Shown here: positions 7,201 through 64,000 of the stretch, one piece after another
Numbering within the stretch: position 1 is the stretch's first letter
Layout of the letters: the number at the start of each line of letters is the position of its first letter
NCBI GenBank assembly: GCA_025449115.1
Contig: JAHLKC010000094.1
Span: 98,049 to 162,048 of the forward strand
Direction of reading: 5' to 3'
DNA from: Chytridium lagenaria
Taxonomy: Eukaryota > Chytridiomycota > Chytridiomycetes > Chytridiales > Chytridiaceae
DNA length: 64,000 bases
Position numbers and translations under genes: made by a program
Notes under the pieces: model-generated
What the model saw: only the letters and a program-made list of their open reading frames with translations
Told to the model about the DNA's origin: nothing
Databases searched by the model: none

Positions 7201-8560
7201 GCTAAATAATTTCCCTGTCTTTCGCAATTTAATCGATATAAAATGCACCTCTCACTTCAAAACCATTTAGTGGTTGCTACTATTATTGCCAACTCAGCCA
7301 ATAATACTCAACTTTAAGACAAACACCCTCATCCATTTCTTGCCAGAATCTAGAGTAACAAACGACGTGACGATGTACCCATGGACCGATATAGCGGGAA
7401 TCAGCTTAACAAGCCTTGCATGACTCAATAAATACTACGTAGGAGTGAAATTGTAACCAAAGATAGTGCTTATAATAGATTATGTTCAAAAGCATTAATG
7501 ATGGCTCGGTTCTGGCAACGTCGGCCGCGTCGCTGTAAATGCATGCTATGTCGATGGTAACTTCATGGACTGTGGATGCTATGAAGCTTGTTATAAAACC
7601 ATATAAGACAAGCGCGGCCTTCCAGGAAATGTTTGAAAGGAGCATAATCGCCCGGTAAGCAGCGTGAGGGGTTTCACCCCGAGAGCTGTTGTTTGGGCGG
7701 TATTCTCGCCTGGCATACTGCGGAGTGTGAACTGAAATGCGCGTGCGCGGGATGTTTCGGTGCGAAAACTTGAGCGTGGGTTTTTGTTTGGGGTGCGCGG
7801 CATATTGCTGCAGCCAAAGGAAATGTTATCCTCTGATAATGTATTGCGGCGTGGATTGGCCGCGTGCAATATTCGGGATTCTCGCCAGCGAATTTTATTT
7901 TTTTGGGGTTGCAAAATTTTCTTAATTTGGACCAATCAACGCATTTTGCATTTATTTATTTTAATTTGTGGAGGTGGAGACAACATATTATTCTTTTCGT
8001 TTCCCAATTATATGTTGCCACTCTTCCCATCCCCCCCCCCTCCCCTTGGGTATTGAAGGTAACAAATACATATTGAAAGAATTTTTTGGAAATTTTGGCA
8101 GGAGGGCGAAATGACGAGTAGTCAATGTGCATTGGTCTATCACCTGATCCTGGAGTCTCCCTCACCGTTGTACCCTGATCTTCATTGGTGTCTGCTTGAT
8201 GCTGACAAGACCATGGACTTCAATAGGGCCAAGCTGTGGGATGATGGATCAGACGTGTTAGATCAATGCACTGGACTGCTCGAGCATTGACTTCGTCCCT
8301 TCTGATCACTCATCTCTCCATACAAAGAGTTCCGATCACTGATCTCTCCATCCAGAGACCTCTTGTTTAACAACCAGAGGGTTCAATCTCCTCTTTCCTC
8401 TCATTCATCTCACCGTTCACTATTGGCACAGAGGCCCTCTTTGTTGGTCTTGTGTAACACCCAAATCTGGTGAATTTCAGGTGTTTGTATTTGTTTACGA
8501 TTCAGATCTCTTGTGATTAATAAATGAATATAGATATTATTATTAATAAAGATGCAAATA
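7201..8560. other. intergenic stretch, no gene identified
   Basis: No reading frame here looks protein-like. A C-run lies at about 8030-8043. The stretch 8100-8470 has low stop density and a TGTAACACCC end near 8452, which could be an old repeat border, but no matching second copy was found in the window. Confidence 0.4.
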
Positions 8561-47300: not shown

Positions 47301-48590
47301 GTCTGCTGGGATGTCGGTGAAAAGGGAGCGACGGAGGGTTGTGCAGGCGGTACCGTTGACGACTGGCGACGACGGGTGTAAGGAGTGTTTGGGATGGGGT
47401 TGCCTGTGCCTGTACCTGAACGGGCGCATTCGCCGACGCTTTTGGGGATGTGCCGACGACGGGGAAGCCGAGGTCTAAGAGTCTTGGACCGAGATGGAGG
47501 ACTCAGCGGGGGGAGGAAGGGAGGGAAACGAGGGGGAGGGAAAAGGCGGGAGAGCGGTTGCCTGCTGTTAGGACGGCGTTTGGAGGGATTCCTATGGGGA
47601 GGTCGTTGAGTGGGTCGAGTGGTGGACAGAGTGGTAGTTGGAGAGGGGAGGAAGGTGGAGGGATGATGGGACGGCTGGGGCTTCCGGCTTTTAAAATGTC
47701 GGGGTCGAATGGAGGGTATGAGGTGCCTATCCAACGGCGGGAATCGAGGTCACGGTCACCTATTAGGACGCCTCAAGAATCAAGGTCTGTTTCAAGGGAA
47801 CCCGCGGCACCGGCCATGTTCCCATTATCTGGGATGGATGTGTCGAGTTTCCCACCACGATCAAAACGCGAAAGCAGTTTACAGGGTATGAAGAGCCGAT
47901 CTAGCGGTCAATCCTTTAGCGATGGACAAGACTTTGATGCATCCCAAGATCAACCTCAACACCTTCGAATTCAACCTCCCGTCTTGCCTCACCCTCATCG
48001 TGGTCCCTTCTCCGCCCCCGCTTCCGAAACCTCCTCCTTTAAACCTCGACAAACCCGCCTTTGAAGACCCTACCCTTGAAACCCTCATCACATCCCCGGC
48101 TTGGTCCATTGTTCTCCGCATGGCAGAGGGACTCGAAGATACCGTTCATCTCATTGACGACACAGATCCGTACACCAGGAAACTCTGTCTCTCCCTTCGC
48201 GCCACCCGTCATTTCCTAAGACTCCCAACACGATCCCTTGGAACCCTCTACTCCAAACCCTCACCGACGCGATGGCGCAAGAACCTTGCGGTGGCCGTGT
48301 ACTACTATGAAGTGTCAGCAGCGTTAGGAGACCCGTTTAGCGTTGAATGGCTCCATCAAAATGATTCACCGATACGACCTTTTAAGAATCCGTTGTTTCC
48401 CTATGTGGAACCTGAGGTTGGGTTTGAAGGGATGTTTGTGGACCCTGTGCCTGTGGATCCTTTATCGAATGGGTGTTTGTCACCACCGACGAATTCGGCG
48501 AGAGGGTCGGATCCGGTTGAGAAGAGACGGTCGAGGAGTGTGGAGGCGGTGGCTTGGACGAGACCGGATGAGGGGGGTGGAGGGATATGA
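44387..48590 (+). CDS. long low-complexity protein with Sel1-like segments
   Basis: The product starts MMMGVVDGGEDASVV and has long Thr/Ser/His-rich and acidic stretches (DDDTVKEEDGG, DDDGTETDQDESISD). Two parts resemble Sel1-type alpha repeats: ADPRAIAMYLLGLCLVRGTG (about 46,945-47,003) with VLLRAYRS upstream, and WRKNLAVAVYYYEVSAALGD (about 48,275-48,330). In fungi, Sel1 proteins of the Chs4/Skt5 type are scaffolds, for example for chitin synthase; that role is inferred. One likely intron is at about 44,930-44,997. The frame must change near 45,838, 46,615, 47,040, 47,200, 47,390-47,450 and 47,940, always with coding-like sequence on both sides. The stop is at 48,588-48,590. Confidence 0.55.
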
Positions 48591-49428
48591 AGCCAAAGAG
48601 TCGAGCGAAAGTGAAGCGGATGTTGGGGGTTAGTAATAGTATTATTTTGAATGGGAGAGAGTGATGGGCGTGATTTTTTATATTTTGGCCCCACCACCTT
48701 TTTGGTTGGAGAGGGGTTCTTTGGGTTTGTGGTTTTGGTGAAGTCTTTTTTTGGGTGGTTTTTTTATTTTTTTTTTGGTGTTTGTGACTTTGGGGGTTGG
48801 AAGAGTAGACCCATTAACGTGTTTTCTTTTTGTGATTTTTGGAGGGGGCATTTTAGACTTTTTGTGACGGCTTTGCATGGTTGCTTTTTTTTTTTTCGGT
48901 TCCCTCATGTTTTCTTTTGCTCTGTTTTTATCCATAGAATTATTAGAATTATCTTTTTACCTCTCGTAATCATAGAACAAATATAGAGCTTATTTAGTAT
49001 ATGTTTTTTTTTGGTTTATAAAGAATTTTCTTTGGGTGAGGGTTACGCTCATAACGTATCATTAAACATATACCGTGGTTGACGCGATGCAGGCCAAAGC
49101 AAACTAGGGAAATATTGATTTGTTAAGGAATGGGGCTGCGGCTAGGCTTCACCCACGCTCTGTTGATACTGTCGAAACCTCTTTTAACGTGAGAGATGAT
49201 GAGATACTTGATGTCTCCATGGGGATTCATTTCAAAATGGTAAGAAGAATGGAGGAAGGTGGAGGAAGGGCGAAAATTAAAAGTTTATCTGCAAGACGTT
49301 CAGCAGACGTTCAACAAAAAAGAAAACACGATGCTACCATCCATTCAAGCAAAAAAAGACATCGTCGACCTCCACGTTCAAGGAACCGTCTTTCGACTTT
49401 CTCGCGAATTCATCCTCAAGCATGACTG
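48427..49428. repeat. tandem duplication, copy 1
   Basis: Covers the last codons of the Sel1-like gene, the intergenic DNA, and the start of the BTB gene. Nearly the same sequence recurs at 50,045-51,018. Differences are mostly run lengths of T, G or A plus a few substitutions. Confidence 0.85.
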
Positions 49429-49984
49429 GATGCCTGCTCGTCTTCTCGCCAACGAACCTGACGAGCCCAGGGAGATCTACTTGGACGTTGACCCTACCTG
49501 CTTCCGTCTCATCCTTCAAGTTCTTCGTGATGGCTCTATTGGCGAAAATAGTGTAAAGCATCTATCGTCCCTGGACGTTGCGTCGCTGTTGATGACGGCC
49601 GAGTATCTGGCTTGTGAGGAGGCGAAGGTTGTGTTGGAGGAGGTGTTGAAGGGCCGAAAGACTTTGGAAGAGGAGGTTCTGCAATATAAGAAGCTTGGTC
49701 AATGGCAGAAGGTTCTTGATAGATTGGCCAATGTTCCATTGGTGCGATTACATTGTAAGAGTGGCCAACGAAAGATAGGTTGTCGTGATGCTAGACTTGT
49801 GTTAATGTTGGGAGAGGCCGTTCCAGGAGACTTCATTCGAGGTCCGCATTCACAAGTTTGCTCTGGATGCGGGAATTGCGAATTTAATATGAAACCATCC
49901 GTTAATGCTGCTTATGCAACACCGGAAAGAATGGCGAACAACCCTGGGGTTGGCAACAGGAACTTGACTTGCTCGAGTGGTTGA
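49331..49984 (+). CDS. BTB/T1 (potassium-channel tetramerisation type) domain protein
   Basis: Domain: DIVDLHVQGTVFRLSREFIL, then YLDVDPTCFRLILQVLRDG, as in KCTD-type BTB proteins, which oligomerise and often serve as adaptors for cullin ubiquitin ligases. The frame is open from 49,259. ATG 49,331 is the first in frame, but an upstream exon (49,120-49,219, ending at a GTAAGA donor, with acceptor near 49,305) may add the true N-terminus. The C-terminal third is Cys-containing (CSGCGNC) and unlike the usual family. A second, truncated copy follows at 50,045-51,018. AATAAA is at 50,018. Confidence 0.75.
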   Translation: MLPSIQAKKDIVDLHVQGTVFRLSREFILKHDWMPARLLANEPDEPREIYLDVDPTCFRLILQVLRDGSIGENSVKHLSSLDVASLLMTAEYLACEEAKVVLEEVLKGRKTLEEEVLQYKKLGQWQKVLDRLANVPLVRLHCKSGQRKIGCRDARLVLMLGEAVPGDFIRGPHSQVCSGCGNCEFNMKPSVNAAYATPERMANNPGVGNRNLTCSSG

Positions 49985-50044
49985 AAAAACTTTAGAAATG
50001 TTATTCGTATTGCAAAAATAAACCGAAGGCTGATTGCAGAATGA

Positions 50045-51018
50045 AAGGGATGTTTGTGGACCCTGTGCCTGTGGATCCTTTATCGAATGGGTGTTTGTCA
50101 CCACCGACGAATTCGGCGAGAGGGTCGGATCCGGTTGAGAAGAGACGGTCGAGGAGTGTGGAGGCGGTGGCTTGGACGAGACCGGATGAGGGGGGTGGAG
50201 GGATATGAAGCCAAAGAGTCGAGCAAAAGTGAAGCGGATGTTGGGGTTAGTAATAGTATTTTTGAATGGAGAGAGTGATGGGCGTGATTTTATTTTGGCC
50301 TCCCCCACCTTTTTGGTTGGAGAGGGGGTTTTTTTTTTGGTGATGGTGTTTTTTTGGGTGGTTTTTTTTTTTTTTGGGTTTGTGACTTGGGGTTGGACGA
50401 GTGGACCCATTAACGTGTTTTCTTTGTGGTTTTTTTGGGGGGCATTTTTAGACTTTTGTGACGGCTTGCATGGTTGCTTTTTTTTTTTCGGTTCCCTCAT
50501 GTTTTCTTTTGCTCTGTTTTTATCCATAGAAATTATTAGAATTATCTTTTTACTTCCTCTCGTAATCATAGAACAAATATAGAGCTTATTTAGTATATGT
50601 TTTTTTTTGGTTTATAAAGAATTTTCTTTGGGTGAGGGTTACGCTCATAACGTATCATTAAACATATACCGTGGTTGACGCGATGCAGGCCAAAGCAAAC
50701 TAGGGAAATATTGATTTGTTAAGGAATGGGGCTGCGGCTAGGCTTCACCCACGCTCTGTTGATACTGTCGAAACCTCTTTTAACGTGAAAATGATGAAAT
50801 ACTTGATGCTCCCATAGGGATTCATTTCAAATGGTGAAGAATGGAGGAAGGTGGAGGAAGGGCGAAAATTAAAAGTTTATCTGCAAGACGTTCAGCAGAC
50901 GTTCAACAAAAGAGAAAACACGATGCTACATCCATTCAAGCAAAAAAGACATCGTCGACCTGCACGTCCAAGGAACCGTCTTTCGACTTTCTCGCGAATT
51001 CATCCTCAAGTATGACTG
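50045..51018 (+). pseudogene. tandem duplication, copy 2: Sel1-like gene end plus truncated BTB gene
   Basis: Begins with the coding end of the Sel1-like gene (about 50,045-50,207) and runs into the BTB gene up to codons for SSSSMTV or, in the other frame, the FILKYD equivalent. There it is cut by the LTR retrotransposon at 51,019. The first BTB exon region has lost bases (for example at about 50,788 and 50,805), so the frame is also disturbed. Confidence 0.8.
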
Positions 51019-51400
51019 TGTGAAGGGATGGGCGTGTCTATAGGGTGTTAGGCGCGTTTTGGGGGGTTTTCGTAACGAGTCTTCACGCGGTGACGCGTCT
51101 GTAATGCGTGCATTGTAGCGTGACGCGTAACGAGAGGACCTATAGTGGACAAAAAGTTGGTATTTTCGTGTCTGCACTTGGAGAGTGTCTTAGGAGGGGT
51201 GTCTTTTCTTGGAAATACCTTTTGTCTTCTGGTGACGCTAGGAACGGGGTGCTTGTTTGTTTAACGGTTTTCCTGGATGTGTCTAGGGGGAGTAAAGGGG
51301 GATTTTACCTGTTTGGAGGACGTCTCGAGAGGGTACACTTTGTAAAGGCGGTTTTGAAATAAATACGTTCTTTATTCACTACACGCGTTCATCGTCCCTA
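51019..51400 (+). repeat. 5' LTR (170 bases matched; likely longer)
   Basis: 51,019-51,188 repeats at the right end and starts TGTG. If the 3' copy is truncated, the full LTR should run on to about 51,370-51,400; AATAAA at 51,358-51,363 would be its poly-A signal. No primer-binding site complementary to a known tRNA was recognised. Confidence 0.7.
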
Positions 51401-51564
51401 TACATAGTTTGATACCGTCTTGCCATCCCTATCGTCCTCCACGAGGTTCCAACACGACGAGTCAAGCTTACCTGTCACGGTACCCGTTCCTTGACAGAAG
51501 TGGTTGCGTCCAGGTTTTGAACAAACCGATCGAGTCCCCAAGGTTAGAACTCGATCACCTTCCA

Positions 51565-53679
51565 ATGATGACGGCACTTGCCTCTTCCGACGTCCCGATC
51601 TTTGATGGTACCAACGAGTATCGTTTCCGAGAAGAGCTGGCCAAGCTCTACTCTAGGATCAAGCTGATGGGTTCGAAGGCTACAGATGATGCCATCATCG
51701 AGTACATCATCGCTCACTGCTTTCCAGGAGCGGAACATGTCAGGTCCACTGCAAAGGAATGGCAGCGGGTCACAAAGTCGGCAAAGCAGCCCATCCTTTT
51801 TGTTAACTTTTTGAATCATTTGAAAGACGTATGGGGCTATGCAAACACAACAGTGACGCTTCAGCACCTCTACGCCCTCTCTCATAGATACAAAGGCATG
51901 CCAATCACCAACCCGTGGTGGGAAGGGATTGTAGCAAACTTCAAGAGGTTGCAAAGCAGGATGGCTACGAAACCGACGGATCCGGAGATGGTGGACTTTG
52001 TGATGGCCCCTATGAGTGACACCATGAAGAATGGTGTTGCGGAGACCATCTACAGGTTTCGACAGACGGCGGCAATCAAGGCATCGATGGCAGCGGCTTC
52101 GGGTTCGACGGCAGCTTCAGTTTTGGTTGAGAGTGTCGGGGGGTCGGGTATAGCTACCCAACCGACGGAAGGAGCTCCAAGCATCAACATCAATGACGTC
52201 GAGCGGCCGTTCACGCTGGATGAGGTTGAAGCCGCTGTGAGGAGCTACCTTAAGGTGATGAGACAGTTCACGGTGTTTGGCATGGAGGAGAGGGGTGCTG
52301 GAGTTGTGGATCCCGTAGCGGAGGTGTTGGCGAAGGGTGCTTTCGGTTTTCCAGGGTGGCAAAGTGGTTTTGGAGGAGGACAGTTGGGCGAGGGTTTTGG
52401 ACAGATGGGTGGTTTTAACATGGGGCATCAGGCGATGGGTGGAGTTCACGGCATTGACGTTTTGGGAGGGGTTGGGGGGGAGAATTTGGAGAAAGCGAGG
52501 TTAGAAGAGCAAAGCAAAGCGGATAACTTTGCGAGGCTCATGAGTACACCTCCGCCCAAAAACCCCGCCCAACCTCAAGCAAGTACCCAGCCCGGCAAAC
52601 AGGTTCGTTTTGCAGACCCCAAGCAGGATCAAGCGCTGCAGGACCTCACCCTGCAGTTCCAAGACATGAAGCTTTTCGTCAACAAAGTCAACAAACAACT
52701 AGACGTACTCACGAACGCAATTCTGAAACCATCACAAGCGGTCAAGGCTAAGAATCCGCCAGGGGAGAAGACAGCGACGGGGCTTTTTCATGAAGTGGAC
52801 TCCATGGTGATGGGAACGGCGGCGTCTCAGGGTGTAAGGTGTTACTATTGCGGTCTCCCAGGACACTATAAGGATCAATGCGAGATCCTTGTTAAAGACA
52901 TCCTAGCAGGCGCTAAGGTGATTATAGCACCCGACAGACGGCTCCATTGGGTGGTGACGGACGTAGAGACGGGTGTAAGGAAGTTGGGAGAGGAGGTTAA
53001 AGGGCACCGCGAGGGGGCACGGCATCATGTGATGGAGGTGGGGGAGGACCCGACTTACCAGGCAGCTCTCTCTCAAGTGGATTTCTCCCTGACTATTGAG
53101 GGGTATGCGTTCAGCTTGGGCTCTGCTCTTGCAACGGAGGGGACACCACGCTGCAAGTCACCACCGGGAGCATCAGAGCCGGTTGTCACGGGGGAAACCA
53201 CAGAAGAGATCCTAGTAGTAGAGGTCCAGTCGTTTTCGCCGTCCATAGCACCGTCAGACGTCTCAGAGGCGGAAGCACTGCGAGTGGTGGAGTCTCTGAA
53301 CATGGAGGGTATCGGAAAGCCTGGTGATGGGGTACCGGTTTGGGTGATCTGTGAGGAAGTAGCCAAAGCGAGGGGCACGGCTGTTGTGGATGTGCAGGTT
53401 AAGAGGGTTAGGGATCCATTGGATGAGGGGGAGCAACCCCCACGTGTTGCGATCGACTGGCCCCCGAAGCCTGGTCAAGCGGTGGTCTACCCACGAAGAA
53501 TGGACCGACCCTCAAAGACGACCACCATAGAACCGACAATCTTACAACCAAGAATACCCTTACCAACGGGAATAAGGACGGGGACCCATACGAATCCTAC
53601 TGTGACGGCCACAGTTCCCACGGTGCAACAGGGTCCGGGTTTGAGCGTGGAAGAGTCGTTTCCGGGCTCCAACGGATAA
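51565..53679 (+). CDS. Gag-like protein with CCHC zinc knuckle
   Basis: The structural protein of the retrotransposon particle, 704 residues from ATG 51,565 (the frame is open from 51,409). The N-terminal alpha-helical capsid-like part includes FREELAKLYSRIKLM. A Gly-rich stretch lies near 52,360-52,480. The zinc knuckle CYYCGLPGHYKDQC (CX2CX4HX4C) is at 52,840-52,881. The Thr/Pro tail ends at TAA 53,677-53,679. Confidence 0.85.
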   Translation: MMTALASSDVPIFDGTNEYRFREELAKLYSRIKLMGSKATDDAIIEYIIAHCFPGAEHVRSTAKEWQRVTKSAKQPILFVNFLNHLKDVWGYANTTVTLQHLYALSHRYKGMPITNPWWEGIVANFKRLQSRMATKPTDPEMVDFVMAPMSDTMKNGVAETIYRFRQTAAIKASMAAASGSTAASVLVESVGGSGIATQPTEGAPSININDVERPFTLDEVEAAVRSYLKVMRQFTVFGMEERGAGVVDPVAEVLAKGAFGFPGWQSGFGGGQLGEGFGQMGGFNMGHQAMGGVHGIDVLGGVGGENLEKARLEEQSKADNFARLMSTPPPKNPAQPQASTQPGKQVRFADPKQDQALQDLTLQFQDMKLFVNKVNKQLDVLTNAILKPSQAVKAKNPPGEKTATGLFHEVDSMVMGTAASQGVRCYYCGLPGHYKDQCEILVKDILAGAKVIIAPDRRLHWVVTDVETGVRKLGEEVKGHREGARHHVMEVGEDPTYQAALSQVDFSLTIEGYAFSLGSALATEGTPRCKSPPGASEPVVTGETTEEILVVEVQSFSPSIAPSDVSEAEALRVVESLNMEGIGKPGDGVPVWVICEEVAKARGTAVVDVQVKRVRDPLDEGEQPPRVAIDWPPKPGQAVVYPRRMDRPSKTTTIEPTILQPRIPLPTGIRTGTHTNPTVTATVPTVQQGPGLSVEESFPGSNG

Positions 53680-53680
53680 T

Positions 53681-53953
53681 GTGGTGGCAGACGTCGATGA
53701 GGATGCGGAGATGGGTGAGGAAGGAGATGCGCAAGGGAAAAGGAGCAGGAGAAGGAAGAAGAAGAAGAGTTTGGGAGCGGAAAAGTCGGCAGACAAAGCG
53801 ACAACGTTGGAAGCTGGAAGTGTTGAGAGGGGAGGATCAGTAGGGCCCGGGGGTTCAGAGACGGTTAACGAAGCGTCAAAACCACTAGGCCCCTCTATAT
53901 CCTTACCCGCTCCCCCCCTCAAGACTACGCTATGCGCAGGGGCATCCATCTGA
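53681..53953 (+). CDS. basic low-complexity linker ORF of the LTR element
   Basis: Contains KRSRRRKKKKS; it overlaps or is fused to the following protease ORF by a frame change at about 53,930. It starts right after the Gag stop and is likely part of a Gag-Pol readthrough or frameshift product rather than a separate protein. Confidence 0.4.
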   Translation: MVADVDEDAEMGEEGDAQGKRSRRRKKKKSLGAEKSADKATTLEAGSVERGGSVGPGGSETVNEASKPLGPSISLPAPPLKTTLCAGASI

Positions 53954-54966
53954 CTCAAGGGGAGCTTCTTGTCGTGATAGACAAGCTTTTCAACCAGTCG
54001 GTGGATGCGTCGATGACGTGGGGACAGTTCCTGGCCTTTTCCCCAAGAGCAGTTCGTATGGTGATGGACAGGATAAAGGCTCGAAAGGTCCCCTTTGACG
54101 CTATTCCTGAAGGACCAGATGGCATGGCGGTGGACGAGGCTGTACTCGCAGCGTTCAACACGAAGGCTGTGCCTGAGGAGGACATGTACGACAGGTTTCT
54201 TAGCTGCTTTCTGGATGAGATAGACCTGGACAAGGTTACTGGTGGGAAAATCACAGCAGAGCGGGCTGGTCAGGGCGCTGACGGGGTCACGGTCGAGTCC
54301 AACTCCTTAGACGTCGTCAACGTGATGAACTACAAGGTTTCTGTCGATGACGTCTTGAGTTTTTCCACAGAACTAGCCGAGGAGGACGGTGGAGAGTTTG
54401 GGAGGCCGGAGCACAATTACGAAACTCGCTGCAAGGTTGTGTGTGCGAGTCCGTCAGTGCCCCACGTCAAAGTCGGTCCTCGGTCCAGACGCGGTTTATC
54501 TGGAAAAAGTTACGTTAGATGGGGGATCACAAGTCATCACCGTTCGTCTATCCATTTATGAACGTGTAGCAGCAACAGCGGGGATTGAAGAGGGTGCTTC
54601 TATCAGCATGCGCGGTGCTCATGGCCACACTAGGAAACTAGTTGGTCTGGTGCACGGCTTCCTGTGGGCATTTTTGGATTCACGTACTTTGTACAAGCCT
54701 TCATCATCGACGACCGCATTGACCCGAAGCCTCCTTTTGGCCTTCTCTTGGGCCAACCCTTCCTGGATCTTGCGCGAGCAGAGACCTCGTGGTCGGAGAA
54801 TGGTGACCAGTGGACGCGTTTTCGAAGTCAGCAAGACCCCAAACTCACCCTTAAAGCCAAGACGGTGGATGTACGCGACAAGGACAACCAATACAACATG
54901 TCGAGTTTCCGTCAAGCAAGAGCCGATGCACAACGACAGGCTTCGCCTGTTTCTCGTGAAGCCTAG
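53932..54966 (+). CDS. aspartic protease region of the LTR element
   Basis: The first part has a conserved pre-protease segment (ELLVVIDKLFNQSVDASMTW, then SPRAVRMVMDRIKARK). The protease core continues in the next frame from about 54,440: VTLDGGSQVITVRLSIYERV, where DGG takes the place of the usual D(T/S)G. It continues in a third frame from about 54,664 with FGFTYFVQAFIIDD and LLLGQPFLDLARAETSW, the second conserved protease block. The stop is at 54,964-54,966. Two frame changes are needed; whether programmed or artefacts is not known. Confidence 0.65.
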
Positions 54967-55729
54967 ACGCACTATCTTGGCTGGAACCAGGCACGCTTAC
55001 GTTCTTGCTCTTGTTAGCGCGTTTTGCGCGTCAAATACGTGTTCTTTTACTGGGATTCCTTTATTCTTTTCGTTTCTCTCCATTCGTTTTCTTTTGCACT
55101 CTTTTCTTTCTCCTTATATTTCTTTCTCTTTATATTTCTTTCCTACTTTTGTTTATTGTTTTCAAAAAGTTACCGCACTTAAGACAGCGGCGCAAGCCTG
55201 AGGGTGGGCCCGGGCGATACGAGGGTCCCGTTGGCAGCCATGGCCACGGTGAAAAGACTAGTGTCCCGTTCTAGTAGGGAGGACCCTTCTGTTTGGAAGC
55301 GTTCGCATTTTATTTTCGTTCTTTTAAGCGTTTTCCTGTATTGTTCTTCTTTTGCTTCTTTCTACCTGTTATGGTTCTTTTCATTGGGAGGTGTTTGGCA
55401 TGTGCCTTCTTGCGTTGTTAACGCGCAAAGGAGCACATCAGTCTTTTTCGCACTTAATGTTTTCTGGACCCCTGATTTGTTCTTCTCTGGTGGGTGTGTC
55501 TTTTGTGTCTTTTCTTGTCTTGTTTTCACTTTGTGTCTATCCCTGTACCCTTGTCTCGGGAGGTTAGCAAGCTGCTTGGATTTAGGGGAGAAGAAGGAGG
55601 AAAAGTTAGATCCGAAATAAACATACCTGGGGAGTCTCAAACCATCCCTTCTCATTCTCGCTCTGGTAAACAGCATCAAGGCATCCGAGGCCGGGACACA
55701 ATCAGCCGAGCCTTAACGAAGCGAAGGGG
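54967..55729 (+). other. internal non-coding region of the LTR element
   Basis: T-rich, with a segment (about 55,168-55,280) similar to 60,252-60,350 after the integrase. Shared blocks: GTTAC(C/T)GCAC, TTA(A)GACAGC(G/A)GCGC, CCTGAG, and a GTCCC..CTA..GGGAGG hairpin. AATAAA is near 55,617. Small hydrophobic frames here come from T-runs and are not called. Confidence 0.55.
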
Positions 55730-56218
55730 ATGACGAACAAGCGCGGCATCAACGCTCAAGAGGGTCGGGCGTCGTTTAGGGGAGAGACTGGGACGGTTAG
55801 CGAGTGGGGAGAGTCTGACTGGACAGCAGGGGTGGACTCGTTCACCGTGAAACTGGACGGAGCGGCTCACCTAGAAGCTGACGGGTCCACCTTCAAAGGG
55901 GTGTTAAGGGGTCTAGCTGAGGATGGATGGGACGTTGCAACGGCAATGGTGGGGGTTCAGGGGAAGCTAGGTCGTATCCTCAAGAAGAAGGGTGTTTTGG
56001 GTAAAGAAGACTCTGTCAGTGCCGTGGTAACAGCGGCCCACTCCATGGACACGCGAACCCTCCTCAAGGTGGCGAGTCTCCTTCGAGAGGAAGGCGTTGC
56101 GAGTAGGCCACTGGACTGTGAGCTGTTGGATTGGTGCGGTGAGGTTGCTGGGCTAGGGCGTATGGGCTTTGGAGAGGTCCTTTTGAGGAAGAAAAAGGGG
56201 GGATGGTGGACAGCATGA
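55730..56218 (+). CDS. unrecognised ORF upstream of reverse transcriptase
   Basis: 162 residues, hydrophilic, no recognised motif. Its stop overlaps the ATG of the RT frame as ATGA (56,215-56,218), a layout that allows termination-reinitiation or stop-start coupling. It may form the N-terminus of a Pol protein. Confidence 0.55.
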   Translation: MTNKRGINAQEGRASFRGETGTVSEWGESDWTAGVDSFTVKLDGAAHLEADGSTFKGVLRGLAEDGWDVATAMVGVQGKLGRILKKKGVLGKEDSVSAVVTAAHSMDTRTLLKVASLLREEGVASRPLDCELLDWCGEVAGLGRMGFGEVLLRKKKGGWWTA

Positions 56219-57798
56219 CTATGTACAAGCCGGCATGGAGGAAGGTTCGCCCGTCGGCAAGTCCTCTAGAAGGTGGTGTTGCCCCTCAGCCATGGGCAGA
56301 ACCAACCGATGACGAGTTGATGAGGAGGCGGCGTGAGGCTATGACGGCGGAACGTATCGAAACGCTCTGTAGTGAAGCATCGTGGCTTCAAGCAGAGGAG
56401 ATTGGGGCCCTCAAGTCGATGTTGAAGGAGGAAGCGGAGTCTTTCTCTTTCACCTTGGCCGACCGTGGGAAAGTTGACCCAGCCATCTGTGAGCCCGTCA
56501 AGATCCACACTATCCCTCACACGGCATGGAAGTTCAGACCACGCAAGATCCCCTATGCGCAGTTAGACAAGCTGGTTGCCTTCTTACGGGAGAAGTTGGA
56601 CGCAGGGATAATGGAGCCATGCTTTGGCCCTTATGCCGCCAATTTCTTTGTCGTCCCAAAGAAGGATGGAGGGGTACGGATGATTCAAGACCTACAGCCG
56701 CTGAACGGGGTAACGATAAGGGACGCGGGGGTGCCGCCTCGTGTAGAGGAGATCGTCAACGCATACTCGGGCCTTTTTATGGTCTCGCCGCTAGACTGTC
56801 ACTCCTTTTACGACCAGTTTAGTCTGGACGTTGAGAGTAGGGACTTGACAGCGATAGCGACACCGTTAGGCCTGATGCGCATGGTGACCCTTCCTATGGG
56901 GTGGACAAACTCAGTCCCGATTGCGCAACGGGCATCGGTCAAGATATTACAACCGTTCATCCCGAAGGAGGTAGAGCCTTATCTGGACGACTACGTAGTA
57001 AAGGGCCCAAAAGCAGTGGAGACAGACCAACGGGAGATTAGACCGGGGGTGCGGCGGTTTATTCAAGATCACCTCAATACGCTACGAGCCATCTTGCGGC
57101 GGATTCGCGGGTGCGGCGCCACACTCTCGGGTACAAAGTCACGTTTCTTTGCATTGGCATGTGAAGTGTTGGGCCATTGGGTTAGCAGGGAAGGGAGGCA
57201 ACCGGGGCCGATAAAGGCATCGAAGCTCGCGTTGTGGGGAAACATCAGCACGGTGCAAGAGGTTCGCGCTTTCTTGGGACTTGCTACATTCTTTAGGAGA
57301 TACATACCTCATTTTGCAATGAGGGCTGACCCTCTTTATCGAATGCTCAGGAAGAATGCGAGGTTTACGAGCGAGTGTTGGGTGGATGTGCAACGAGCCA
57401 GGCAGGACTTAGGGTCGGCGTTGGGTGCACAGCCGGTACTGCGACCAATAGTGTACGGGGAAGATGCTGGGCGACTTTACCTCTCGGTAGACGCGTCGCC
57501 AAAGGGGTGGGGCGCTTGGGTTGGTCAGGAGGATGGGGCAGGAGGGAGGAGTGCGGTGTCGTTCTTTTCGGGTCGTTTTAACGGCACGGAGCAGATATAC
57601 GACCAGACAAAGAGGGAGGTTTTAGCAGCCTTGAGGGGTTTGAAAGCTGCCCAGCAGTACGTTTGGGGAGCCGACTTCACGCTGGAGACGGACGCCAAGT
57701 CATTGATTGGTTCATTGGGCCGGATTGAGACGTTGGACGCACGCAACAGCGATGGTTGCTGGCTATACGAGCTTACCATCCAACGGTACGTCACGTGA
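56215..57798 (+). CDS. reverse transcriptase and RNase H
   Basis: Copies the retrotransposon RNA into DNA. RT motifs: FFVVPKKDGGVRMIQDLQPL, FDQFSL-like FYDQFSLDV, LPMGWTNSV, and the active site YLDD at 56,980-56,991. RNase H: YLSVDASPKGWGAWV, KREVLAALRGLKAAQ, LETDAKSLIG, so the Asp/Glu/Asp set is present. The frame ends at 57,798. The natural end of RNase H (RAYHPTVRHVSGKVNTVADT) lies in the next frame from about 57,756, so one frame change occurs there. Confidence 0.92.
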   Translation: MTMYKPAWRKVRPSASPLEGGVAPQPWAEPTDDELMRRRREAMTAERIETLCSEASWLQAEEIGALKSMLKEEAESFSFTLADRGKVDPAICEPVKIHTIPHTAWKFRPRKIPYAQLDKLVAFLREKLDAGIMEPCFGPYAANFFVVPKKDGGVRMIQDLQPLNGVTIRDAGVPPRVEEIVNAYSGLFMVSPLDCHSFYDQFSLDVESRDLTAIATPLGLMRMVTLPMGWTNSVPIAQRASVKILQPFIPKEVEPYLDDYVVKGPKAVETDQREIRPGVRRFIQDHLNTLRAILRRIRGCGATLSGTKSRFFALACEVLGHWVSREGRQPGPIKASKLALWGNISTVQEVRAFLGLATFFRRYIPHFAMRADPLYRMLRKNARFTSECWVDVQRARQDLGSALGAQPVLRPIVYGEDAGRLYLSVDASPKGWGAWVGQEDGAGGRSAVSFFSGRFNGTEQIYDQTKREVLAALRGLKAAQQYVWGADFTLETDAKSLIGSLGRIETLDARNSDGCWLYELTIQRYVT

Positions 57799-58957
57799 GC
57801 GGGAAGGTCAACACGGTTGCAGACACGTTGAGCAGACATAATCTTGATAACGCGTCAAGCGATGATGGCGAAGACTTGGAGAGTCATGTTGACGACATCC
57901 TGGGTATGCCAGCGGTTCATCAGGCAGGGCAGGGTCTCCAAGCGGTTCATCAGCCGAGGCGCGGTACTCGGGCAGATCATCATCTCGCGGTCAAGATCCT
58001 TTCCTGGAATGTTAATTCGACACGTAACGCGGTTAAACGGATGGGTAGCGCGTTCGGGTCTACCGTGCTGGCTTATGACGTTATTTTCCTTCAGGAGACA
58101 CGCCAAGGAAAATGCCGCTTCGACCGCGTGCCTGGTTTTGAATTTGAAGGGTCGCATAAGGCTTTCTTTGTCGACTTTCCGGTTGTGGATGGAGTAGGCT
58201 GGGGAAGGAATGGTGTGGCTATACTGGTGAGGAAAGGCCTCTTCGGGGATGACACACCAGATGAGCGGAGGTTGTGCTTTGACGGGTGGTCAGCAAGGGA
58301 GATGGAAGGAAGATACATAGAGCTGCGATTTGGGAGGATGGTTCTAATCTCGGTTTACTGCCCAGCGGCGATCCGGAACAGGGACTTTCGCATTCCCTAC
58401 AAGATGGCTTTCTCTCACGCGGCAACGACACGTTTCTCTGCGCTGGAGGACCGAGGGAACTTGCTACTGATCGGTGGTGACTGGAACGTGTCGCAGACAC
58501 CTCTGGACATTCACCCGTCAGCCCTCGGTCTTATCAACTCGGGTTTCGGGATGAAGAGCGCGAATGGCTGTCCGACCTGTGCTCTAGGTTTATCGACACT
58601 TACCGCACCAAGCACCCGCATAGGGTGTCTTATACAACGTGGTGGCGTCAGGATCGCCGTCATAATGTTGGTTTCCGCTTTGACGCCATTCTGGTTTCGA
58701 AGGGTGCAGACATCGTGAAGGCTGATCATCTTGTTGGGGTCAGGGGATCCGATCACATCCCTGTCACGGCGGAGGTGATTTTGCGTATAGATACCGTCAT
58801 TGTGGGGATTGAGAAAGCCGACTGGACGTTGGAAGACTTACACGTAGCAATGGCGCTGGAGGGGTTGGACATTTCTACGCGTTTGGGACAGGTTTATTGG
58901 TTTCTTTGGAGGGGTTCACCACCAGATGGGTCAGCAGGTCGGCAGCGGCTAGCCTGA
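57756..58957 (+). CDS. exonuclease III / AP-endonuclease-like (EEP) domain within the LTR element
   Basis: After the RNase H end (ADTLSRHN) comes a complete-looking EEP nuclease, 57,990 to about 58,785. Motifs: VKILSWNVNSTRNAV, VIFLQETRQGK (catalytic Glu), WGRNGVAILVRKG, LLLIGGDWNVS (Asp and Asn), then in the following frame GFRFDAILVSKG and VRGSDHIPVTAEVIL (Asp and His). These are the catalytic landmarks of the family that nicks DNA at abasic sites or, in LINE elements, at target DNA. One frame change occurs near 58,550. I know of no Ty3-type element in which this domain lies between RNase H and integrase. Confidence 0.85.
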
Positions 58958-59958
58958 GGAGGCAGGCCACGCTGTACTTCATTGCAAACGGTCGTCTCTT
59001 CCCCACCCGCAAGGCAAGCGCACTACACCCAGAGAGTCGTCGGCTCTGTAGAATGGCGGGAGAGTATTGTCAAGGAAGCCCACGAGGGTTTTGGTGGGGG
59101 GCACCGGAGTGTCATGGGGACGGCGAGAAGGTACAACGTCGTTACTTCTGGCCAGGTCTCTGGGATGACGTGAAAGCCTTCATCAAGACCTGTGATGGGT
59201 GCCAGCGGCAAAACCCCAAGCAATTCTACGAGAAGCTGGAGATTCAAGAGGGTCGCCTGATGCCAACAGCGTTCAGGAGGTGGCATGTCGATCTCGTCAC
59301 GATGGAGGGTACAAGGAAGTACTTAGCGCTATTCGTGGAAGAGATTACAGGGTGGGTGGAGGGTGTTACCATGACTGCTAAGACGGCCTTGCCGATACTG
59401 AAAGTCATGGAGAGAGAGGTGTTTTCGCGATACGGGGTCCCAATGGAGGTGGTCATCGATGGCGGGGAGCTTGATGGACACGAGATTCAGAAACTGGCGT
59501 CGAGGATGGGGTTTGACGTGAGGGTTACAATGGCATACGGCCAGCAAGCTAACGGTTTGGTTGAGCGTGCAAACGTTCCTATTGTCAGCGCGCTAGCCAA
59601 AGCCTGTGAAGGCCGCGCATATCAATATGAGCGTTACCTGCCAGCCGCGTTGTGGGCATCGAGGATAACGGTCCGTTCCACAACGCAGTTTAGCCCTTTC
59701 GAGCTCCTGTTTGGACAGGAACCAGTTCTACCCATTGAGTTCGCCATTGACACTTATGCCGTCATCCAATGGACACGTATGACGACGGTTGAGCTCCTGG
59801 CGGCAAGGATTCGCATGCTTCAGCGCAGGGACTACGACATCGAGGAGGCAAAGCGACGTATTGAACGAGCTAGGGTTGTGAGGGCGGAGGCATTCAACAA
59901 AGGACACTTGATTCGCCTGCATCAGAGGCGATTGAGGAGGGGGACCTCGTTGTCGTAG
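58897..59958 (+). CDS. integrase (DDE) of the LTR element
   Basis: Inserts the DNA copy into the genome. The zinc-binding HHCC domain is split over frames: KEAHEGFGGGHRSVMGTARR (about 59,072-59,130) in one, YFWPGLWDDVKAFIKTCDGC in the main frame. Catalytic residues: Asp in RRWHVDLVTM (about 59,290), Asp in EVVIDGGE (about 59,457) and Glu in QQANGLVERANVP (about 59,564). Frame changes near 59,010 and 59,130 affect only the zinc part. Confidence 0.88.
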   Translation: MVSLEGFTTRWVSRSAAASLRRQATLYFIANGRLFPTRKASALHPESRRLCRMAGEYCQGSPRGFWWGAPECHGDGEKVQRRYFWPGLWDDVKAFIKTCDGCQRQNPKQFYEKLEIQEGRLMPTAFRRWHVDLVTMEGTRKYLALFVEEITGWVEGVTMTAKTALPILKVMEREVFSRYGVPMEVVIDGGELDGHEIQKLASRMGFDVRVTMAYGQQANGLVERANVPIVSALAKACEGRAYQYERYLPAALWASRITVRSTTQFSPFELLFGQEPVLPIEFAIDTYAVIQWTRMTTVELLAARIRMLQRRDYDIEEAKRRIERARVVRAEAFNKGHLIRLHQRRLRRGTSLS

Positions 59959-59977
59959 GGACTCCAAGCTGGACAAT

Positions 59978-60232
59978 ATGAAAGGAGTGAAGCTTAGATG
60001 GAGGTACTTCGGCCCATTTTGGGTTCGCGGTAGAGGACCGAATACATACCTACTGGCGGAGATGGACGGGTCCCCATATCAGAAGCCAATTCAAGGGGCA
60101 CGGGTCCGCCTTTACCGGAAACGGGACGAAGGCCCGGATGACTTCCCGGTTCACCTACTTGACGAGGAGGAAGACGAAGAAGGCAGCTCCAGTGAGGACG
60201 TAGGGGTGGAGTTTTGGGATGCGTGTAGATAG
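59978..60232 (+). CDS. integrase C-terminal tail of the LTR element
   Basis: LRWRYFGPFWVRGRGPNTYL and IQGARVRLYRKRDEGP look like the post-integrase end of Ty3-type Pol proteins; an acidic tail follows. It is in a different frame from the integrase core, one more frame change at about 59,950. No chromodomain seen. Confidence 0.65.
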   Translation: MKGVKLRWRYFGPFWVRGRGPNTYLLAEMDGSPYQKPIQGARVRLYRKRDEGPDDFPVHLLDEEEDEEGSSSEDVGVEFWDACR

Positions 60233-60438
60233 AGTGAGGAGGGAAAGAGGTTACTGCACCTTAGACAGCAGCGCTCGCCCTGAGTGATGGAGGGGTTCCA
60301 CCGAGTTTTGTCGCGGCTGGTGGCTAAGAAGTTTAGCGTCCCTACTAATCGGGAGGCCGGTGGGGTGTGGTCACAAGAACGCCACTGATGGACTGGGTAA
60401 TCCAATGAGGGCATTGGACCTGAGAGGGGTTCATCAGA

Positions 60439-60608
60439 TGTGAAGGGATGGGCGTGTCTATAGGGTGTTAGGCGCGTTTTGGGGGGTTTTCGTAACGAGT
60501 CTTCACGCGGTGACGCGTCTGTAATGCGTGCATTGTAGCGTGACGCGTAACGAGAGGACCTATAGTGGACAAAAAGTTGGTATTTTCGTGTCTGCACTTG
60601 GAGAGTGT
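60439..60608 (+). repeat. 3' LTR, truncated by Helitron-like element 2
   Basis: 170 bases matching the 5' LTR start. The preceding GAGAGGGG (60,422-60,429) is a possible polypurine tract. At 60,609 the sequence leaves the LTR (which continues CTTAGGAGG in the 5' copy) and enters the palindrome of the next element. Confidence 0.8.
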
Positions 60609-60609
60609 T

Positions 60610-60631
60610 CTCTTGGGGTATACCCCAAGAG
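60610..60631. repeat. 22-bp perfect palindrome at the start of Helitron-like element 2
   Basis: The left half, CTCTTGGGGTA, is followed at once by its exact reverse complement. Short terminal or subterminal palindromes occur in the Helentron/Helitron2 group and may mark the replication start or stop. Confidence 0.8.
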
Positions 60632-60940
60632 TAGACCGACCTCTTAAAAATTATCGGTAGTGGCCGAAATACACCAATCCGAGGATAGAAACAGTCACTG
60701 TTGGACAATGGCCGCCAATAAAAGAGGTGAAAAGTCAGTCCGATAGCAGAGACTTCCGACTTATAACAAGGGTGCCGTTTTGCGTCGCACGAAATCTGAC
60801 CCAATTGAGGGCGATGATTCGTCAAAGACTGTAGAGAACGAAGGCAAAGGTATTCATTGGACATTTCAACACTACAAATAATTAAACTTAGTGTTACATG
60901 AGCACAAACTAATGTGTTACTCTGTAATACTTAAACACAA

Positions 60941-61044
60941 GAGTATGTGTAACAGGAACCAGGAAAATTTGCATGTCACGTGACCTCCAAACAAAAGAGA
61001 GTGTGTAACAGGAACCATGAAAATTTGCATGTCACGTGACCTCC
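60941..61044. repeat. two direct repeats with palindromic GTCACGTGAC
   Basis: Units at 60,941-60,988 and 60,999-61,044 share GTGTAACAGGAACCA, AAAATTTGCATGTCACGTGA and CCTCC. GTCACGTGAC is a perfect 10-bp palindrome, a typical bHLH-type site. They lie before the first ORF of the element, so a promoter role is likely. Confidence 0.65.
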
Positions 61045-61093
61045 GGAGGTCGGGAGGTCTAATCTCTATAATCTGTATGTACATGATGGTGTT

Positions 61094-62430
61094 ATGAAAT
61101 TGTATATATTCGTGCCTGTCTTTATGAATAATAAATATTATGGTAACAAATTTGCTATTACATTCACAAGCACACTAATGACCCTCTGCAAAGCTCCATT
61201 GCACACTTGTGTTGGGCGTAATCCTGACTGCTGCGCAGCTTGTCATCTGCAGGTATCGCAGTGTGCTCGCTGTGTTGATATAATTCCTACGGCACATTGT
61301 CGCATTGAGAGTTCTTATCGCAATTACCGAACGGTCATCCTCCCCACACTATCAGATGTGTGCGGTCGCTGTTTTGCGATTCCCGGTTTATGCTTTTGCA
61401 TCCACAACATTCTCAGTATCCGTCGGGATTCGACGTCGTCACCATCTGCTGTCGATGCCGTACCTGCTGCAATGTCTACCGGTTGCCAAACTTCCCCAGC
61501 GAGTAAACGTCAGCGACTGTTCAACACCGAAGCCTATAATGCTAAGCGGGTATCTGCTCACCAGCATCTGCTTCCCGACTCCGTTGCCTCTGCTATGCAA
61601 GAACATGGCGTATTTACCATTCCTAATGAAGACAACTTGGACAAGATATCTGAACAGGCTGTAATGTTGATGTCAAAAGACACCCTCGCTTATCTTATAT
61701 GCGCCGTATGCGAATTGTACCACTCTCCTACGGTTTCGTCTCTGATAGATCCCACCCCCTTTTACGAGGTATTTCATATGATTGTTAACTACATTCACTT
61801 ACTTTATGAAGGAATGGACTTCTATTTTAAAGCCTCCTCCACATTTACCGGACGCTGTCATCAAAGACTACTGTGTGAAGGACATCGCCCCCGCCGTCGC
61901 CGACATTATGTTACAGCGTCATGGTTGGTTTTTATATCAACGCTTTTCTTACATTCTAAAGGCGTATCTATCATCAACGATATCACTCTACTGCGCCTGT
62001 GCTCTGAATGCAAAGCCGACCTTGTCGACTCACGGCCGTCAAAATTACCCGTCAACAGCATACGAAATGGGAATTACATAGGTCACCTCCCTGACATTTT
62101 TCGCTCACTTACGAGGACGGATGAGCTCCTCCTGGCACTTTCGACGCCTGTATGCAATATAACGACTGTTAAGCCGACGAAGAACGGAGAGATTAGAAGC
62201 CACACTTACTTGGTCCGGAATACTGCTGGCCCCTTGACGGCGCTAGTGCCAAGAGACATTACCAATCTCTGTCGCGTAACGTTTGTTGGAACTTTTACAT
62301 CACGACAGGTAGCTCTCACAAAGCAGCGTTACGATGTGCAGCTTGATAAGTGTCGTGATATGTTAGGCTTTTTGCGGAAGTACAACATTTTATATGCCGA
62401 TACTTGTCCCGTCATACCGGATACTTCACC
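61094..62430 (+). CDS. Helitron-like element 2, Cys-rich N-terminus and DUF6570-like domain
   Basis: The N-terminal part is rich in Cys/His pairs (CCAACHLQVSQCARC, VCGRCFAIPGLCFC), likely zinc binding. A nuclear-type basic stretch SKRQRLF follows. DUF6570-like domain: LRLCSECKADLVDSRPSK, LPDIFRSLTRTDELLLAL, RSHTYLVRNTAGPLTALV. Between about 61,780 and 61,960 another frame (VIKDYCVKDIAPAVADIMLQ) looks more protein-like, so two small frame changes may be present. The exon ends in SPG at a GTAAGT donor (62,431). The start codon is uncertain. Confidence 0.65.
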
Positions 62431-62800
62431 AGGTAAGTTTTCTATCCCGTACATTCATTTTACAACTTACCTTCTCGTCTCCCGACCTCGGGAGGTGATG
62501 TCATCCGTATGAACCAATTTATTTAATAACTCATTTAAATTTTATTAACTTCCCTCCTCATCTCCCGACCTCGGGAGGTTATGTTCTTCGTATGAATCAT
62601 ATTATTTAATACCTCATTGCATTATTATTTACTCCCGTCCTCTCCTCTTGATCTCGATATTTTATGGCATTCATATGAACCGATTTATTTAATCCATCCT
62701 GTATTTTTATTAATTATCTTCCTCTCCTTCCGATCTCTTGATATTTACCCATTCTTGTAGTGTACTCATGTATATAGTGTCTAACCGCCTTCGTTGCTTT
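62431..62800 (+). repeat. intron with degenerate tandem repeats, Helitron-like element 2
   Basis: Begins GTAAGT; the acceptor is either TTGTAG near 62,760 or GCTTTAG near 62,802 (the latter gives DIFSYTDATECD). It holds about four units of roughly 80-90 bases. The first two contain the hairpin CTCCCGACCTCGGGAG, then CGTATGAA and TTATTTAAT; units 3 and 4 are more worn. Confidence 0.55.
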
Positions 62801-62802
62801 AG

Positions 62803-64000
62803 ACATATTCTCCTACACCGACGCTACGGAATGTGATAGTAGCATCGACATCGACGTCGAACTAGCCACTCATCATGTACCGTCTGACCGGGCAATCCTT
62901 TGTCAGGGGATCCTACTTTCGGTGACCCTATGCTGTCATCTTTTGTGTTAACGCAATCACCGTGCAAAAAAGATCCTCTGCTCTTGGTACGTAACTCAAA
63001 CCTCAACGAGTCTTCTTGGGAATGGCACGAGGTAGTCAGAATGTTCCCTACCCTTTTTCCTTACGGTTGCGGTGGTCCCGGTGAGAATCGAGAACGAAAA
63101 CTTACCTTGCTGCAATGGATACGTCGATGCTTGAGAGTGTGGGGTCGTCAATTTGCTACGCACTACGCCTTCGCCGCCTTCGCATTCGATAAAGTAGCTA
63201 CCCAGCATGCTTACCGTAGCCTTAGTTGCTCTATGAAGGTGCAACGGCACGCTGCCACTGACTCTCAAATAACTTCCTCCGTCATCGATAAGGCTTTGCG
63301 TGAAATTGAATCTTATGCCGTTAGATCACGACACGGACTTAAGGGACTTACCACCGAGGCAGCCGACACCGTCGCTTCGATCGAGTCATTGAGAAGGGGG
63401 GTCCAAGCTGGTGAGCAGACGTTCCCCGGATCAAATGCCTCTTCATCTCGTGGACGCCGTGAAGGCTTTGCTGCGATTAGAAGACTTGGCCAGGCTCACG
63501 TTTTCTTGACCCTTACACCAAATACCGTTGGGAGTTACTCCGTCGGTATCACCTCTGGCCTTATTGATCCCACGAATCTTTCGGCTCTTAACTCTGTTCT
63601 CCCATCGGATGATATTTTAAAAAAGGCCGTGAGAGGAAATGCGTTTGCGGCGGCATCATACTTCGTTGCTTGTCTTAACGTTGTTATTGACGTCATTATC
63701 GGATTTGACAGAACCTACGGCAGACCGAAGGTCCAAGGTGGGGTCTTAGGACACGTGGATAATTACTTATGTTCCATTGAGACTACTAAAAGTGGTGACC
63801 TGCATGCACACTTTGTAATATGGTTAGTTGGAATGCCACGAACACATTCGGGATACATATCTGCTCTCACACGGGATACCTTCAGAACGCGCTTGTGTAA
63901 ACTTCAAGACACAATCGGTACCTGTTCCCCATCCATATTTGGCAAAGCACCTACCGAAGACGTTTTTCATCCATCTCATTGCCCAAATACTTCGTGCTCT
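62803..64000 (+). CDS. Helitron-like element 2, Rep (HUH nuclease) domain, 3' end outside window
   Basis: The main frame is open from 62,888 to the right edge. Landmarks: SSWEWHEVVRMFPTLFPYGC followed by GGP, a Q-rich mid part, GQAHVFLTLTPNTVGSYSV, VIIGFDRTYGRPK, and the HUH motif SGDLHAHFVIWLVG (about 63,793-63,834). In Helitrons this domain nicks and rejoins DNA. The first exon piece (62,803-62,900) is in another frame; a one-base change at the GGGG near 62,906 would join them. The Rep block here is far better kept than in element 1. Confidence 0.8.

Follow-up and report, generated by a model that had tools for sequence, protein, structure and literature searches.

We describe a Ty3-type (Metaviridae) long terminal repeat (LTR) retrotransposon of Chytridium lagenaria that carries, between RNase H and integrase, a nuclease domain of the endonuclease/exonuclease/phosphatase (EEP) superfamily. 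The element occupies positions 51019-60608 of the 64,000-nucleotide stretch analysed here (the window; contig JAHLKC010000094.1, C94:98049-162048, in a searched assembly of 41.9 Mb and 356 contigs whose other loci are named by contig, as C11 or C95a), and its order is LTR, gag-like frame, reverse transcriptase (RT, with YLDD), RNase H, EEP, H2C2/DDE integrase, and LTR. That the RT-RNase H-EEP-integrase architecture is real is close to certain; an earlier note on this DNA had given this order with its motifs and coordinates, and domain scans and reading frames bear all of them out. Functionally, we posit, at a probability of roughly one half and as the likeliest of several explanations, that the EEP is a fixed Pol domain of such elements, which would repair or trim the element's own complementary DNA (cDNA) before integration.

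Copies of the element and recurrence across the genome

A protein search of the genome returned seven loci above 60% identity (the window, C63, C115, C158, C11, C137, and C95b), and in every one of them the RT, RNase H, EEP, and integrase matches stand in order on one strand. The earlier note had proposed a Ty3-type element with two DNA-cutting enzymes, and had reasoned that copies lacking the EEP, together with target-site duplications or a LINE (long interspersed element) 3′ end at its edges, would speak for a nested LINE fragment; all seven close copies keep the RT-RNase H-EEP-integrase order, and the comparison favours a real module. Two copies (C115 and C63) are 99.5-99.6% identical to the window and C158 is 94.7% identical, while the EEP protein of C11/C137 is 68% identical to that of the window. 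C11 and C137 are themselves 99.7% identical over 9.5 kb from LTR to LTR, with flanks that are not alignable and insertion sites that differ, and the LTR pair of each carries 0 substitutions. TG...CA LTRs are present in C11, C137, and C158, with 4-bp target duplications that read, by eye, CATC, GTGT, and GAGT, respectively. Together, the identity of C11 and C137 at different sites, the substitution-free LTR pairs, and the target duplications indicate that EEP-bearing elements have moved recently, as LTR elements.

Further copies with this domain order, for which the earlier note had advised a search, include some with open frames. In C11/C137 the end of RNase H, the whole EEP, and the start of integrase form one open frame of 653 amino acids; in C95a a single open frame of 1604 amino acids (1299 of them read) holds RT, RNase H, EEP, and the integrase core; and C198 has an open frame of 2573 amino acids, 1155 of which were scanned for domains. 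C22 and C5 are short EEP fragments with no RT or integrase match within the stretch examined.

Genome-wide, a search with the window RT gave at least 87 matches (79 of 133 candidates scored), merged to at least 62 loci, and the ExoIII/APE model TIGR00633 ("xth") gave 107 matches, merged to 75 loci. Among the matches listed, 33 of the 62 RT loci have an xth match within 3 kb downstream on the same strand and none has one downstream on the opposite strand, with four same-strand and four opposite-strand pairs upstream. A count from the PF03372 table plus five places from the protein search gave 30 of the 62 listed RT loci with an EEP within 3 kb downstream on the same strand, and none downstream on the opposite strand or upstream on the same strand. 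Uniform random placement produced a mean of 0.17 pairs and a maximum of 2 in 2000 trials, a mild control because real mobile elements cluster; the bias of strand and side is independent of that control. Integrase lies downstream in 15 of the 18 EEP loci examined with 1.5-kb flanks. The earlier note treated the element as a single case; among the matches listed, roughly one in two Ty3-type RT loci has such an EEP.

Several details of the close copies stand apart from these counts. C11 and C137 share a frame change at the same place inside RNase H (~8378-8396 of the C11 stretch), which may be a shared assembly error, a real mutation, or recoding. The window, C115, and C63 differ by 3-6 substitutions against 18-22 gap openings over 9.6 kb, and in their EEPs by 0 substitutions and 1-3 gap openings; as near-identical copies differ mostly by insertions and deletions, the assembly appears to hold many small gaps, and the frame breaks in these three copies may be assembly indels rather than decay. 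The three also have ~13 kb in common from the LTR rightwards, beyond the LTR element (window 51012-64000, C115:119781-132751, and C63:201341-214181). C94 and C115 stop at the same base of this stretch, the C115 match ends on the left at the LTR start, and the C63 contig ends inside the LTR, a pattern that could stem from an assembly edge or from an event through the LTR, either duplication or recombination.

Type, selection, and ancestry of the nuclease

By hidden Markov model, PDB search, and predicted fold, the EEP domain is of the ExoIII/APE1 type. Against a curated TIGR00633 cut-off of 99.05 bits, the element EEPs scored 128 in C11 (EEP clade I) and, in six members of clade II, 150 (C95a), 156 (C76), 148 (C155), 132 (C324), 129 (C198), and 123 bits (C184, which lies at a contig start and was assigned to EEP clade II from EEP similarity alone). 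In the window, PF03372 covers residues 91-266 of frame 57729-58718, and this N-terminal part of the EEP reaches, by itself, 72 bits to xth, below the cut-off. PDB sequence matches of the element EEPs are ExoA, XthA, and APE1 (best 9e-29, for C95a), and an AlphaFold model of the C11 EEP (pLDDT 76.5, pTM 0.82) had XthA, APE1, and their kin as its top five PDB folds (E 1e-14 to 7e-14, TM 0.71-0.76). The catalytic motifs (N, E, Y, D/N, D, and D/H) do not vary among six EEPs, whose identity to the C95a EEP is 30-51%, and are also seen against APE1; we take the invariant positions to be APE1 N68, E96, Y171, D210, N212, D283, and D308/H309.

The LINE nucleases of the same genome are of another kind. 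Six reference EEPs (on C114, C155, C40, C47, C182, and C148) have an RVT_1 match 1-1.6 kb downstream on the same strand, which is the LINE order; all six match PF14529, four of them above its cut-off, and their xth scores are at most 25.5 bits, with no score for two. As they score so much lower to xth, a LINE origin of the element EEP is unlikely, and the earlier note's suggestion of capture from a LINE is not supported, given the 123-156 bits of the open-frame EEPs and the separation of the two sets in trees, although a tree that holds Ty3-type and LINE EEPs together is not formally rejected (p-AU 0.2).

Estimates of dN/dS, the ratio of non-synonymous to synonymous substitution rates, were made by the Nei-Gojobori method on aligned pieces as they lie, and gave nine computable values of 0.05-0.30, which are approximate because dS is 2-3, near saturation, in most comparisons. 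They are 0.15 (132 codons) and 0.05 (178 codons) for C11 against C95b, 0.13 (187 codons) and 0.08 (81 codons) for C11 against the window, and 0.30 (134 codons) for C95b against the window; within clade II, four of 15 pairs were computable (C76-C155 0.10, C324-C184 0.08, C155-C184 0.15, and C76-C184 0.19) and the remaining 11 were saturated at synonymous sites. On these ratios, the EEP is kept by purifying selection in two separate lineages.

Evolutionarily, the carriers of the EEP are, as judged from an RT tree of 14 loci of this genome plus Ty3 (several rows being single fragments, and some branches long), two lineages. The window, C158, C11, and C95b are sister to C194, C160, and C356, the seven rows standing together with support of 100/100, and tblastn found no EEP in C194, C160, or C356; with the poorest rows removed, the window group and C194 still stand together (100/100), with the inner order open. 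The C95a group (lineage II) joins Ty3 and C222, the latter without an EEP, and the window RT, on its own branch, is 25-33% identical to the C95a group and C222. A single clade of all EEP carriers was rejected (log-likelihood 92 lower, p = 1e-55 in the approximately unbiased test, p-AU). The clearest EEP-less state is in C160, whose open frame of 723 amino acids aligns to C11 on both sides of the missing domain (residues 156-302 to C11 3-147, and 344-493 to C11 470-617), so that 41 residues stand where C11 has 322.

Trees of the EEP itself included 20 of the 80 retained prokaryotic loci (every fourth plus one; L075, with no usable frame, was omitted); the window and C95b have partial EEPs and were not among the rows. 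In them, the EEPs of both Ty3-type groups fall together, apart from the LINE EEPs and the 20 prokaryotic ExoIII rows (95/84; 92/75, unstarred, in a second tree), and the six LINE rows form a separate branch (100/99); grouping with human APE1 was not rejected (p 0.14-0.16). The joint grouping of the Ty3-type EEPs is weak, because C11 is the sole clade I row and sits on a long branch (1.97), and may reflect transfer between Ty3 lineages, two captures from related sources, or an old gain with several losses. At C6:512739-513419 lies yet another EEP, the third and a strongly diverged one, whose downstream integrase has 54% identity to the C95a integrase; EEP diversity in lineage II therefore exceeds the sampled set.

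Lineage II appears, by predicted fold, to carry an ASCH-fold domain directly before the EEP. In C95a a linker of 217 residues separates RNase H from EEP, and a model of 130 of these (pLDDT 73) matched ZmASCH (1e-5) and the ASCH domain of human TRIP4 (4e-5) in Foldseek; Pfam and PDB sequence profiles gave no match to the linker, the ASCH likeness being seen by fold comparison only. A search with this linker gave 12 matches, ten of which lie between an RT match and an xth match of one locus, with one (C37:473) beside xth without RT and one (in C13) beside RT without xth. The domain might bind nucleic acid or act on RNA. In C198 and C324 a second, shorter stretch upstream looks related to it by eye.

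Coordinates and surroundings of the window element

A repeat search of the window found identical 170-nt repeats at 51019-51188 and 60439-60608. The earlier note's 9.6-kb LTR-bounded element holds up in that LTRs are present at both ends; it had left unmentioned the shortening of the 3′ LTR to 170 nt and the break in the EEP frame. The EEP starts ~50 residues past the RNase H end VADTLSRHN, in a shared frame. Frame 58481-58957 holds its last third, GSDHIP included, so that a frame change near 58545 interrupts the window EEP. Pieces of the gag-like frame are 91-100% identical in C115, C63, and C158 and 36-57% identical in C11/C137, and among the close copies compared C95b gave no match to it. 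The rve match reaches 28.5 bits against a cut-off of 32.6, and is therefore below it. As for a chromodomain after integrase, C95a has a Chromo match below cut-off (E=0.0016) and the window C-terminus has none.

Features of the window element and places of the ASCH-fold domain
Feature	Position	Strand	Basis and remarks
5′ LTR	51019..51498 (end approximate)	+	Begins TGTGAAGGG; 170-nt identical repeat; right end from similarity to the 487-nt LTR of C158
3′ LTR	60439..60608	+	Cut off after 170 nt; repeat and similarity to C158
Gag-like open frame, weak CCHC zinc knuckle	51358..53679	+	773 aa between stop codons; PF00098 E=0.032, short of its cut-off
RT (PYLDD) and most of RNase H	frame 56143..57798	+	RVT_1 E=1e-12; RT_RNaseH E=1.2e-16
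RNase H C-terminal end, TQQRWLLAIRAYH...VADTLSRHNL	57729..57845	+	Same frame as EEP; read directly; equivalent part of C11 covered by RT_RNaseH
EEP (ExoIII/APE-type), N-terminal two thirds; SWNVN, LQET, VYCP, GGDWN	57990..58545	+	PF03372 E=7.7e-9; TIGR00633 E=5.5e-20; PDB ExoIII 6e-9
EEP, C-terminal third; FRFD, GSDHIP	58541..58785	+	Other frame (58481-58957); 56% aa identity to C11; dN/dS against C11 0.077, 81 codons
Integrase, H2C2 zinc domain and DDE core	frame 58813..59958	+	Integrase_H2C2 PF17921 E=9e-10; rve PF00665 E=1.8e-6
Integrase C-terminal part, GPF-like motif by eye	59936..60232	+	Weak SH3_Tf2-1, E=0.25; 59.6% identity in C137
ASCH-fold domain (predicted), lineage II	C95:96481-96870, C50:17037-17426, and ten others		Between RNase H and EEP

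Around the element, a 22-nt palindrome CTCTTGGGGTATACCCCAAGAG at 60610-60631 directly follows the cut 3′ LTR and is followed by DUF6570 and Helitron_like_N frames (60609-64000); from this arrangement, a Helitron-like element has apparently inserted into the 3′ LTR. A Helentron fragment as the source of the EEP was considered and rejected: the Helitron_like_N frame begins beyond the element, at 62888, and in C11 one frame holds the EEP together with RNase H and integrase sequence. To the left, a ~1.6-kb tandem duplication (48427-51018; repeat families D1, D2, D5, D7, and D10) adjoins the 5′ LTR, and the window also holds short tandem repeats of 83 nt x 3 (62464-62712) and 56 nt x 2 (60933-61044).

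Proposed role, alternatives, and significance

Mechanistically, the EEP would be made as part of Pol, in frame with RNase H and integrase where frames are open, would enter the particle with Pol, and would act on the element's cDNA after reverse transcription and before integrase. There it could cleave abasic (AP) sites and clear 3′ ends of blocks or mismatches, as an AP endonuclease, 3′-phosphodiesterase, and 3′-5′ exonuclease, such that the cleaned cDNA could be finished and its ends used by integrase. The dUTPase of non-primate lentiviruses would be its analogue in both function and position, although at the preceding step of the uracil and base-excision problem; dUTPase acts on dUTP, AP endonuclease on a later repair intermediate, and their folds are unrelated. 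More tentatively, and with rather less confidence than we place in the cDNA role, we suggest that Ty3-type elements may have gained a base-excision-repair step of their own at least twice, at the Pol position that holds dUTPase in lentiviruses and with an ASCH domain added in one lineage, the module having passed between lineages, for the survival of cDNA damaged by uracil, abasic sites, or deaminases.

The ExoIII/APE family has exonuclease and RNase H-like activities, and the EEP might instead serve reverse transcription itself, removing primers, trimming ends, and editing 3′ mismatches through an ExoIII-like 3′-5′ exonuclease or RNase H-like activity, with no role at abasic sites. These activities fit, in C11/C137, C95a, and C198 a single open frame runs from RNase H into the EEP, and APE1 exonuclease complexes are among the fold matches of the C11 model; however, the element already has an RNase H, and C194, C160, C356, and Ty3 manage without an EEP, such that we regard this role as a serious but unlikely competitor. 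Improbable, in our estimate, is a nuclease that nicks target DNA and so aids or redirects integration. LINE EEPs do nick target DNA and the element EEP adjoins integrase, but its type is ExoIII/APE rather than LINE, integrase domains are present, and TG...CA LTRs with 4-bp duplications in C11, C137, and C158 are as expected from a DDE integrase; LTR ends and duplications of this normal kind speak against an EEP that stands in for integrase, and the earlier note's idea of target nicking is disfavoured in that form.

Two further explanations were weighed. Were it a passenger or spacer without catalytic role, the existence of sister elements without an EEP would be readily understood, but the low dN/dS in all nine computable comparisons and the catalytic residues invariant in six EEPs make this very improbable. 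A nested LINE fragment, chance, or an assembly artefact would suit a window copy whose frame is broken, near-identical copies that differ mostly by indels, and an EEP grouping with LINEs that is not formally rejected; it is refuted by the counts, to the point of being barely credible, as seven close copies have the EEP, 33 of the 62 listed RT loci have it on the same side and strand, continuous frames run from 653 to 2573 amino acids, and the LINE EEPs, with their low xth scores, lie upstream rather than downstream of their own RT. LINE insertion, in particular, was ruled out by copies, frames, domain order, and model type.

Several observations weigh against a repair role or against a fixed Pol domain. 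In clade I, to which the window belongs, Ala replaces the Asn of YxPN that is present in APE1 and clade II, and Phe replaces the Trp of WR(I/L)DY, so that AP-site specificity could differ. No dUTPase was found beside the elements (one short match occurs in the whole genome, elsewhere), and hence no uracil-handling package is seen. The window copy is itself frame-broken within the EEP, three of the 18 EEP loci (the short fragments C22 and C5, and also C131:34k) have no integrase match, and 42 of the 75 xth loci lack an RT match within 3 kb, while 29 of the 62 listed RT loci lack an xth match; decay, contig ends, and the RT list being a lower bound may each contribute to these unpaired loci.

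Compared with known systems, the elements share with Ty3 and other Metaviridae (Ty3, PDB 4ol8, 7q5b) the RT-RNase H (C95a to Ty3 4ol8, E=5e-85), the H2C2/DDE integrase after RNase H, and TG...CA LTRs with a short target duplication, but add the ExoIII/APE domain between RNase H and integrase and, in lineage II, the ASCH-fold domain. The EEP resembles ExoIII/APE1 (xth) in sequence family, catalytic residues, and predicted fold, yet is located inside a retroelement polyprotein, with the clade I substitution in YxPN, and the C95a loop before WRIDY is three residues shorter than in ExoA by alignment. Non-primate lentiviruses encode a dUTPase between RNase H and integrase in Pol, according to the part of PMC4261571 consulted, and thus place a DNA-guarding enzyme at the same Pol position. 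LTR retrotransposons of basidiomycetes and bdelloid rotifers likewise have a captured uracil or DNA-maintenance enzyme in Pol, but their dUTPase lies between protease and RT, with no EEP mentioned in the portion of PMC5408684 at hand, whereas no dUTPase was found beside the elements here. LINEs and AP-EN Helentrons, as excerpts of PMC6431247 and PMC10799480 state, carry a nuclease of the EEP superfamily; unlike in LINEs, the element EEP stands after RT and RNase H and before integrase, in an element with LTRs, whereas the LINE EEPs here precede RT and belong to another branch, and unlike in AP-EN Helentrons, no Helitron domain is present in the scanned element frames and the EEP is not in a protein with Rep and helicase. 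IMG/VR returned no EEP-bearing Ty3 element with the patterns used, no relatives in two further scans, and two ExoIII-type matches of unexamined context. In literature outside Repbase, UniProt, and subscription journals, we found no title or abstract opening describing a Ty3 element with an EEP or AP endonuclease, although slash-spelled terms may be missed, and an existing record of such an element is possible.

For the reading of fungal genomes, a screen lists Exo_endo_phos under LINEs while noting, in the section of PMC10799480 seen, that the domain is not solely derived from transposable elements. Counts of EEP domains in fungal genomes are not simply readable as LINEs, as many such matches here are in Ty3-type elements. 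Extra Pol enzymes are informative, dUTPase having shown that cDNA damage limits some retroviruses. If the proposed cDNA role is true, a selected AP endonuclease in LTR retrotransposons would mean that cDNA repair, beyond the avoidance of uracil, can be element-encoded, and the two lineages would allow the exchange of modules among Ty3 elements to be tested.

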